64,000 bases of DNA from Cytophagales bacterium (lineage in GTDB: Bacteria > Bacteroidota > Bacteroidia > Cytophagales > Thermoflexibacteraceae), in the NCBI GenBank assembly GCA_013298985.1, contig JAAFJS010000005.1, forward strand, positions 1-64,000, read 5' to 3'. Below, piece after piece: positions 3,782 to 29,558 of the stretch. The stretch's first letter is position 1; every line of letters starts with the position of its first letter. The notes under the pieces were generated by a model. It did no database searches. It worked only from the letters and a program-made list of their open reading frames with translations, and had not been told where the DNA came from. A program made the position numbers and the translations under genes.

Positions 3782-4026
3782 TGTTTAGAAAACTGTCGGC
3801 AAAGTTTTCAACTGTTGCCGAAGTTTTCTAAGGGCAATATGGTTTTTAAAAGAATTTTTTTGCTAAATACCTGAATTTGAAAAAAGTCAAATTGCATCTT
3901 TCGAAGAAGTGAGGAAAGCAGCGAACTAAGCAAGCGAAAAAGCAGTTTTCCCCATAAATCTAATACTTTCACAAATTATTATCGCACTCTTTTTGGCAAC
4001 GAGGAGAAACTAACAAAGCTAAAACT

Positions 4027-4446
4027 ATGGCAAAGGTAGAGAACAATAGCACAAAAAAAATAGTAGAGAAGCGTTTGGTGGAGAACCCCAAAGCGGCTTC
4101 GCTTGGCAATAAATGTTGCAAATATTGCGACAAACCGATTCAGTATTTCACTGATGACAGGCAGGTGTACTGCTCTAATACTTGCCGTAGCTTGGCAAAT
4201 CAGGCACAAAAAGCGGCAAAAACGGAAATAGCAGAACTGAAAAAAGAAACTATTTCTATCGCCAAACGACTGCCAAACGGAAACGCGGCTATCAATTCCG
4301 CGCAAGGCATGACCAATGACCAGCTTTGGAAATTGGTGGAGGCTATGATGACCGAACTGGCTACTGAAAAATCCAAAAATGTTACCCTTTCCAAAGAACT
4401 GGGGAAGTTCAAAAAAGTAGCTTTTAATCTGTATGTGAGTGAGTAA
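4027..4446 (+). CDS. Small zinc-finger protein (CKYCDKPIQYFTDDRQVYCSNTCR)
   Basis: 139-aa ORF; zinc-finger motif resembling 2540..3781 and 48157..49458. Confidence 0.7.
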   Translation: MAKVENNSTKKIVEKRLVENPKAASLGNKCCKYCDKPIQYFTDDRQVYCSNTCRSLANQAQKAAKTEIAELKKETISIAKRLPNGNAAINSAQGMTNDQLWKLVEAMMTELATEKSKNVTLSKELGKFKKVAFNLYVSE

Positions 4447-27395: not shown

Positions 27396-28211
27396 ATGCT
27401 TGGCAACTTAGATAATGAGGTTATTTTTAAAAAGGCATTTACCAATAAAATAGTCTTTAAGGCTTTCGTGCGTGATATTTTAGGTATTGAAATAGAGGTA
27501 GATAAAATAGAAACTGAGAAAAAATTTGAACCCAAGATTGGCTATGTAGATTTTGAATTAGACATTTTTGCAGAGTCAGTAGATAGAAGAATAGTGATTG
27601 AGATTCAACGAGTAGAATACGATAGCCACTTCGACCGTTTTTTGCATTATTTCTTGATGCTGATTGCAGAGCAACAAAGAAACGCCAAAACTTACAATAT
27701 AGACCAAACTGTTTATGTGATAGTAGTTTTGACTGCGCCTTACACCATTAGCGAGAAAAATGGGAAGCCTATCCTTGACGAGGTACTTTTGATACAGATG
27801 AACCCGCAGACCTTAAAAGGGGAAATCAGAGATTTATATGGACACAAGTCGGGCGGCGTTCCGCTCGTGTGCCTTAACCCCAATCACCCTGACAAAGACA
27901 CCCCCAAACAGATAAGAGATTGGTTAGACTTGATTTATCAGTCCATTCACAATCCGCAAAGACCTTCGTTAAACACTGAAAATGAGGGAATTAAAAAGGC
28001 GATAGAACTGATTAGTTTTGAAAACTTGACCCCAGAGGAACGCAGAGAAGCGAAAGACAATGAGTCCAAAAGAGTTACGATTGCACGAATTGAAAATGCA
28101 AAAGTGATAGAAATTGCCAAAAATATGCTAAAGAAAGGTTTTGATAATGAAACGATTGTAGAACTCACAGGCTTAACTCCCAACCAAATAGAAAAACTAA
28201 GGGAGAATTAA
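27396..28211 (+). CDS. Rpn/PD-(D/E)XK (PDDEXK_2) family nuclease/putative transposase
   Basis: MLGNLDNEVIFKKAFTNKIVFKAFVRDILGIEI..; IVIEIQRVEYDSHFDRFLHYF; C-terminal NETIVELTGLTPNQIEKLRE. Confidence 0.85.
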   Translation: MLGNLDNEVIFKKAFTNKIVFKAFVRDILGIEIEVDKIETEKKFEPKIGYVDFELDIFAESVDRRIVIEIQRVEYDSHFDRFLHYFLMLIAEQQRNAKTYNIDQTVYVIVVLTAPYTISEKNGKPILDEVLLIQMNPQTLKGEIRDLYGHKSGGVPLVCLNPNHPDKDTPKQIRDWLDLIYQSIHNPQRPSLNTENEGIKKAIELISFENLTPEERREAKDNESKRVTIARIENAKVIEIAKNMLKKGFDNETIVELTGLTPNQIEKLREN

Positions 28212-28376
28212 AACCCAATTTATCTGTTTGTAAAAATGATAGCTTGAAGTTGAAAGACAGATAAAATTTTGATTTTTCAAACACTATTTTTATGATTTTT
28301 TAATTATCAATGCGGTTAATAAACAATAGTTTTTTTATAGCAAAAAATGTCAGTAGGGACACTTACATAAATATAG

Positions 28377-28448
28377 TGAAGGTAAAAGGACTCGAACCAA
28401 TAAACCACTATACTCGACATAGCTGCTCTACCATTGGCATATACCTTC
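28377..28448 (-). ncRNA. Degenerate tRNA-like cloverleaf (possible tRNA pseudogene or tRNA mimic; apparent CGA loop triplet)
   Basis: GAAGGTA TA TGCCAATGGTAGAGCA..GCTAT GTCGAGT ATAGT..ATTGG TTCGAGT CCTTT TACCTTC A: perfect 7-bp acceptor, 5-bp anticodon stem with one G-T, canonical T-loop but two T-T mismatches in the T stem; short variable loop. Confidence 0.5.
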
Positions 28449-28454
28449 TTTTTC

Positions 28455-28488
28455 AAAAAAAGTCGCAGGTTCTCTGCGAACCTGCGAC
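28455..28488 (-). terminator. Strong intrinsic terminator on minus strand
   Basis: GTCGCAGGTTC-gcaga-GAACCTGCGAC then TTTTTTT (minus strand). Confidence 0.85.
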
Positions 28489-28536
28489 GTAAAATTAACC
28501 CCCTCTTCAAGATATCCTATGAGGAAGGAGGCTCTT

Positions 28537-28722
28537 GCGGTTACTCATGTTCAGCAAATTTTATGTTTACCTATTCTTCATTCCACCACTGAATTAATCT
28601 GCCTTTGAAATCATACTAAATAAGAGGCAGATGTGGGATTCGAACCCACGACAAAGAATGTTCTAATTCACTGACTTTCACCTATCAAACTAAACTTGAC
28701 GCTTTGACTACGAATCTAACGC
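28537..28722 (-). ncRNA. Circularly permuted tRNA-like RNA; candidate bacterial Y RNA (YrlA-like)
   Basis: Minus strand order: ATTCTT (28659-28654), T arm GTGGG-TTCGAAT-CCCAC (28649-28633), ATCTGCC (28632-28626), loop, GGCAGAT (28603-28597), TA, D arm ATTC-AGTGGTG-GAAT (28594-28580), AAGAAT (28578-28573). Acceptor strands pair 7/7, ATTCTT/AAGAAT 6/6; weak outer pairing GCGTTA (28722-28717)/TAACCGC (28543-28537). Confidence 0.65.
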
Positions 28723-28778
28723 TAAATTATCGAGTATTTTGACGCTAAGAGTTAAAGCTGAAGTTATAGTCAAGATTT

Positions 28779-29558
28779 TTATAATTTACCCAAATGAATA
28801 TAATCAAACACTTTTTCACCCAGGTCCGAAGAAATTAGTTCGGCATTATTTGCCTCTTCCAAAGCGGTAATGGTCGCTTGTAAGAGCTTTTCGTACCTCA
28901 CCAGCAGTTCTGCACGCTGATACATACTGAACTCGCCGCTAAATTGCTGCGAAGTATAAGTACCAATCAACACTTGCATAGATTTATCTGCCACTACGGG
29001 TTGCCTGTTTTTGTCAGGGTGCGGGTCTGTTAAGATGTACTGCTCCTTGATGGTTGTTTTTGCCTCACCAGTTTCGAGGGCGGTGCTAAAAATACCTTTT
29101 GCCCTAAAAGCTTCCTCCTCCGCCAATGCCCAAATGGATTGCTCGCTTCTCACAGGAATTTCTTTGTACAAATCACGCAGTTTACCTTCTAAAATAGATT
29201 TCAAACGTAGCAGTTCCAGCGAGCTATATTCGCCCACAGTCTTGTCGCCAATCACTAATTTACCTTTTACAGTACCAGAGGAATTGGTTTTTTCTATGTT
29301 AAACACCGTAGTCAGGTAGCTTTTTGAGTTAGTATTCATCCACTCTAACTGCTCAGAAACCGTAGAAACCACATTTACAAAACTTCTTTTGCTCGGTTCG
29401 TCCAAATAGCCTTCCTTGGCGATATACGTTTTCCTTTCTCCTTTGAATAGCGTTTGCTTAGATTTGAACTTATTAAATAAGTCATCAATCATATTTTTAA
29501 ACTCTTTTTCGGCTCTCTCTCGCAAGGCTAATGCCACACTTAGTTTGATAATTTTCAT
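28779..29558 (-). CDS. Uncharacterised protein, upstream of and co-oriented with the tRNA-like RNA
   Basis: 259-aa complete ORF MKIIKLSVALALRERAEKEFKNMIDDLFNKFKSKQTLFKGERKTY..; stop at 28779. Confidence 0.75.
   Translation of the reverse strand: MKIIKLSVALALRERAEKEFKNMIDDLFNKFKSKQTLFKGERKTYIAKEGYLDEPSKRSFVNVVSTVSEQLEWMNTNSKSYLTTVFNIEKTNSSGTVKGKLVIGDKTVGEYSSLELLRLKSILEGKLRDLYKEIPVRSEQSIWALAEEEAFRAKGIFSTALETGEAKTTIKEQYILTDPHPDKNRQPVVADKSMQVLIGTYTSQQFSGEFSMYQRAELLVRYEKLLQATITALEEANNAELISSDLGEKVFDYIHLGKL

Follow-up and report, generated by a model that had tools for sequence, protein, structure and literature searches.

A 64-kb stretch of a Cytophagales genome (GCA_013298985.1, contig JAAFJS010000005.1), called the window here and cited by forward-strand coordinates, carries on its minus strand a gene for a DUF7873 protein and, directly downstream on the same strand, a non-coding RNA in which the halves of a transfer RNA (tRNA)-like fold stand in permuted order. 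The 259-residue product of the gene (28779–29558), which we propose as the protein partner of the RNA, scores 117 bits against Pfam PF25283, where the gathering cut-off is 27 bits, and is thus a member of DUF7873, a family without assigned function on which no paper was found in the literature searched. Homologues likewise precede such an RNA. Two arrays of UNA hexamers with a 6-nt periodicity lie between the gene and the permuted module, the first at 28739–28775 (TCTTGA CTATAA .. CTTTAA CTCTTA GCGTCA) and the second at 28672–28728 (AATTTA GCGTTA .. GCGTCA AGTTTA GTTTGA .. AAGTCA). The module itself occupies 28573–28659 and is followed by a hairpin with a AUAGGAUAU loop (28499–28531), an intrinsic terminator (28455–28488), and a second tRNA-like element in ordinary order (28376–28448). 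The upstream gene, the 6-nt arrays, and the second tRNA-like element had escaped the first-pass annotation of the locus.

The permuted tRNA-like module

A tRNA 3′ half had been placed ahead of a 5′ half on this strand at first reading, and direct reading bears this out base for base. The outer-helix 5′ strand ATTCTT (28659–28654) leads into a T stem of GTGGG and CCCAC (28649–28645 and 28637–28633), paired 5/5 around a TTCGAAT loop, and then into the acceptor 3′ strand ATCTGCC (28632–28626), the T arm and this strand together forming the tRNA 3′ half (28626–28649). A 22-nt acceptor loop, TCTTATTTAGTATGATTTCAAA, starts with UCU (28625–28604) and connects to the 5′ half (28580–28603), which consists of the acceptor 5′ strand GGCAGAT (28603–28597), then TA, and the D arm ATTC-AGTGGTG-GAAT (28594–28580); a G follows. 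Both halves are also recovered by a purpose-built scanner, which looks for a T arm, an acceptor, and a D arm arranged in the permuted order. The outer-helix 3′ strand AAGAAT (28578–28573) sits at the anticodon position. The pairing originally described, 7/7 in the acceptor or 8/8 counting U28625–A28604, with a complete T stem and a canonical D arm (4-bp stem, 4/4 paired), stands, and the terminator (28488–28455) is real, with an 11-bp stem plus T7. The hairpin with the AUAGGAUAU loop resembles hairpins in the related loci L177 and L178, in alignments judged by eye.

The scanner scores the window unit at 26.5, compared with a maximum of 24.0 in 25 dinucleotide-shuffled 64-kb windows. The Rfam model of YrlA (RF02553), the Y RNA family to which the first-pass annotation had pointed, matches 28674–28548 end to end with an E-value of 2.5e-5, but at 33.1 bits the match lies below the 69-bit cut-off. 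Because the full-model match has this E-value and the scanner score exceeds that of all shuffles, the module is more than chance.

Homologues with compensatory changes, whose absence would have counted against the structure, were found in three comparisons. The T and acceptor stems are paired in every one of 40 distinct units, a percentage that is partly circular because unit selection demanded pairing, and two-sided changes occur at all 12 pairs. The whole-structure covariation score of these units is 0.851, which 0 of 500 shuffles reached, versus 0.216 when shuffled and a slid maximum of 0.217. The outer helix, which was not part of the selection, has a mean pairing score of 10.5 within and 7.2 between sequences (82 units, standard deviation 0.19, z about 17); the helix at the anticodon position pairs better within its own sequence, as expected if the RNA runs on through that position. 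When 13 related RNAs are aligned over their full length, compensatory changes appear in the acceptor, the outer helix, and a long basal helix. The outer-helix test and this alignment weigh more because they are free of pairing selection. Compensatory differences in the acceptor were also seen between the near-identical Rhizobium phages L010 and L014.

Co-occurrence with DUF7873 in bacteria and phages

Genome comparison finds DUF7873 together with the RNA across distant bacteria and phages, in the usual case side by side on a single strand and sometimes in trans. Genome scans recovered more than 500 stretches encoding DUF7873, the best of them from Streptomyces and Kitasatospora; within the order of the window, the family is present in 31 of 342 genomes as two subfamilies. 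The closest phage relatives of the window protein are in Lak megaphages (40% identity), followed by Arthrobacter, Rhodococcus, Pseudanabaena, and Rhizobium phages, and a Streptomyces homologue as query additionally recovered Gordonia, Vibrio, Klebsiella, and Microcoleus phages. The phage loci often lie amid tRNA genes, with a gap poor in coding sequences after the DUF7873 gene, and these gaps give weak matches to the Rfam YrlA model. With the scanner, a permuted unit was found within 500 nt downstream of the gene in 59 of 86 loci, at a density of 1.98/kb versus 0.0041/kb elsewhere in the same loci (about 480-fold denser). The enrichment spans Streptomyces, Bacteroidota, and several phage groups, and the window locus shares the arrangement, on the same strand. 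No further conserved neighbor beside DUF7873 and the RNA was found in 28 Streptomyces loci.

Where the RNA is not adjacent, it can be encoded elsewhere. In some Bacteroidota and in the Lak phages, a terminator-like hairpin directly follows the DUF7873 gene without the RNA there. A model of the RNA, R1, locates it in trans in several Bacteroidota as tandem copies about 490–530 nt apart, and in Lak phages, where it is absent beside DUF7873, it was found at one locus in each of two phages, with UNA arrays before and a tRNA-like module behind. The best R1 score reaches at least 54.9 bits in 24 of 25 genomes with DUF7873 and in 1 of 15 without it, a co-occurrence weakened by the fact that some strong matches are Y RNAs linked to Rsr, the bacterial Ro60 orthologue; the same fact accounts for the exception, G300.

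The conserved RNA, about 300–420 nt in relatives, has a helix capped by the permuted tRNA-like module; it further contains flanking UNA arrays of 6-nt period and another module resembling a tRNA. In 53 dereplicated loci with the units masked, pairs of the motif YUNA spaced 6 nt apart number 124 against 26 expected (z = 16, and z = 16–18 for the UNA periodicity at lag 6), pooled values that are upper estimates since the loci share ancestry. The spacing is also in excess at 12 nt (z = 9) and 18 nt (z = 7.5), with none at 9 or 15 nt. The 6-nt period is individually significant (p < 0.05) in 48 of 64 loci, and for the whole window RNA p = 0.003. A reading of the arrays as codons was dropped, as the wider UNA motif has no excess at a lag of 3.

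The second tRNA-like module varies in form. It is permuted as well in actino- and cyanophages, in Streptomyces, and in a Klebsiella phage, where two permuted units stand in tandem, and it is of ordinary order in Bacteroidota and in several Vibrio, Rhizobium, and Lak phages. A single permuted unit, with UCU after the acceptor (UCA in L178), is present in the loci most closely related to the window (L177, L178, L179, L181, and L182), and in most of the single-unit loci checked an ordinary-order tRNA-like module follows about 50–135 nt on. The window copy, found in the same place as in relatives, reads as tRNA-Ser(CGA) without a long variable arm and is degenerate (31 bits); several second modules in relatives rate as good tRNAs, at 44–67 bits. 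Their identities include Ser, Leu, Met, Val, Phe, Arg, Gly, Ile, Thr, Lys, and a CUA anticodon, and neighboring paralogues differ in identity. In L209, L210, L213, L215, and L244 the anticodon loops have 8 nt, for which ARAGORN reports the four-base anticodons gcag, ttcc, cgta, and tttt. In Klebsiella phage vB_KpM_FBKp24, the second permuted unit (4064–4142) is overlapped in its T arm and acceptor by an annotated tRNA-Sup-TTA (4012–4091), which is probably a mis-annotation of the DUF7873-linked RNA.

The acceptor loop differs among lineages. NCCA follows the acceptor in 8 of 8 units examined in proteobacterial phages versus 0 of 15 Bacteroidota units beside DUF7873, and relatives tolerate long insertions, with acceptor loops of 222 nt (L178) and 168 nt (L184). 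Because NCCA is encoded in these phages and long loops are tolerated, the loop is probably opened or excised by tRNA end-processing.

On the other strand of the window, a gene for a PD-(D/E)XK (Rpn-type) nuclease or transposase (27396–28211, plus strand) converges on the locus.

Relation to Y RNAs and other permuted RNAs

The first-pass proposal of a YrlA-like Y RNA holds for the shape of the tRNA-mimic module and is not supported for the partner, which was to be Rsr. The tRNA-like domain of YrlA resembles D, T, and acceptor arms (PMC8394870), and the window RNA has such a domain; as in YrlA, permuted T arm, acceptor, and D arm sit atop a basal helix, and the model match is weak yet full-length. 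The 5′ and 3′ ends of Y RNAs pair in a large stem (PMC8394870), the lower part of which is bound by Rsr/Ro60 (PMC4726728); here an outer helix is supported by covariation in relatives. Bacterial Y RNAs are 90–150 nt long (PMC8394870); the conserved span of the DUF7873-linked RNA in relatives suggests a longer transcript. That RNA further differs from YrlA in its two tRNA-like modules, its 6-nt UNA arrays, the encoded NCCA in some phages, and DUF7873 in place of Rsr: the recurrent partner gene is neither rsr nor rtcB. No TROVE (PF05731, Rsr/Ro60) protein was detected in the 98%-complete genome, although TROVE is present in many related genomes; RtcB, the other gene to be looked for, is encoded elsewhere in the genome. 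Rsr-linked RNAs of related genomes and one Rhizobium phage share the permuted module and carry a UGYCGUA/UUGCGA ... UUACUUCG signature, with the first motif in 25 of 26 units and both motifs in 24 of 26. The signature is post hoc with respect to the Rsr-linked set, so the informative side is its absence from all 93 DUF7873-linked units (0/93); the window lacks it too. The Rsr-linked RNAs in turn lack the 6-nt period. An ordinary Y RNA, bound by Rsr and linking it to an exoribonuclease, would account for the YrlA match and the module common to both sets, but on genome content and signature we reject it as quite improbable.

Three other identities were considered. Permuted tRNA genes, as found in algae and archaea, have the anticodon stem-loop split at the gene ends. 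The window module shares with them the order of the halves and a processable acceptor loop, and a working tRNA made by end joining (e.g. by RtcB) and RNase P cleavage would fit the NCCA in phages of CCA-encoding hosts, the RtcB gene, and the tolerated insertions. There is no anticodon loop, however, the anticodon position being a helix that runs into the repeat arrays, and the linkage to DUF7873 would be left unexplained, which makes this reading improbable. Weak matches to tmRNA_permuted and beta_tmRNA, seen in relatives, suggest a relative of the permuted two-piece transfer-messenger RNA (tmRNA; RF04321), in which the 3′ half of the tRNA domain precedes an intervening segment and the 5′ half. 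Typical of permuted tmRNA are a G3–U70 alanine identity and a D loop without a stem; in the window RNA the D arm is canonical, with 4 bp in its stem, and the pair is C3–G70, ARAGORN calls no tmRNA, and we consider this identity highly improbable and reject it. Tandem tRNAs do yield weaker matches to the model in any genome, but an origin of the module from tandem ordinary tRNA genes, as a remnant, or by chance folding is barely credible given its conservation, its covariation, its tie to DUF7873 across bacteria and phages, and the lack of any shuffled match at the window's score; the comparative data refute it.

Y-type RNAs were noticed at other loci as well. In Rhizobium phage RHph_TM21B (111500–116000; L236), a TROVE gene and four signature-bearing Y RNAs lie about 6 kb from the DUF7873 module, and both systems therefore share one phage. 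A Bacteroidota genome has a large Y RNA array of six tandem Y-type permuted units after a TROVE gene (L227, G341:C1:25500-29900). In the window's genome, where no TROVE was detected, a cluster of UUACUUC...AAAUUACC Y-RNA-like hairpins is mixed with permuted tRNA halves (L240, G000:C304:1200-3055), ahead of an open reading frame with a CGHIIPDGTFPLERYNGCPYCGTPF zinc-ribbon-like stretch.

A proposed DUF7873 ribonucleoprotein

The locus encodes a module of two components, a DUF7873 protein and, beside it, a structured non-coding RNA. The latter belongs to a conserved, DUF7873-linked class of permuted tRNA mimics that is real, is undescribed in the sources searched, and is Y-RNA-like in its module with a different proposed partner. 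From comparative evidence, we put at about 60% the probability that the window RNA is a tRNA mimic bound by DUF7873. Structure prediction for the window protein (mean predicted local distance difference test score 85.7) gives a beta-alpha-beta-beta-alpha core and a long beta hairpin, a shape that would suit RNA binding. Sequence searches of PHROGs, PADLOC, NCBIfam, and the PDB were uninformative. Cas7/Cascade chains recur near the top of the Foldseek lists for DUF7873 (E 0.03–0.2, template-modeling score about 0.1), which is not significant and serves only as a lead. RNA binding by Cas7 proteins has a period of 6 nt, and the UNA arrays would call for the same.

Several observations weigh against a DUF7873-bound mimic. 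Foldseek with both DUF7873 models returned nothing at E < 0.001, so RNA binding rests on the association. Some DUF7873-bearing Bacteroidota lack the RNA within 1.5 kb, and inspection confirmed copies in trans for only some of them; L180 has no RNA beside DUF7873, and genome G426 gave no strong R1 match. In the window, the terminator parts the second tRNA-like element from the rest of the RNA. The circularity noted for T and acceptor pairing belongs here as well.

If DUF7873 does bind the RNA, plausibly with one protomer per hexamer, the particle would display tRNA mimics to tRNA-handling enzymes. The leading role, still tentative, is to act as a decoy or adaptor toward enzymes that cleave tRNAs or survey them, which fits because the locus sits among phage tRNA genes and the tRNA identities of its modules change; the YrlA tRNA-like domain was earlier suggested to inhibit an anticodon nuclease (PMC7790460). 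Tethered decay comes second and is doubtful: in such a RYPER-like quality-control machine, DUF7873 would replace Rsr and the tRNA-like module would dock a nuclease. The same module binds PNPase in YrlA (PMC8394870), and in Streptomyces the protein–RNA pair stands alone, but the locus has no linked nuclease, and the two tRNA-like modules with their changing identities would be left unexplained. We favor the decoy or adaptor role, and it is possible, if speculative, that the module represents a second class of tRNA-mimic ribonucleoprotein that does not depend on Ro60, with a DUF7873 oligomer on the hexameric repeats at one protomer per 6 nt and two tRNA-like modules displayed, one or both of them ending in a processed CCA, countering or sensing tRNA-cleaving enzymes during phage infection.

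tRNA mimics of permuted shape are known in bacteria from Ro60/Rsr, and DUF7873 would be a second widespread protein family that travels with such mimics, with carriers that include phages up to the 540-kb Lak group. An uncharacterized protein family gains a probable RNA partner, and from the 6-nt arrays a specific assembly mode is predicted, which one structure could confirm or refute. With representatives in culturable phages and Streptomyces, the purpose of tRNA mimicry becomes testable.
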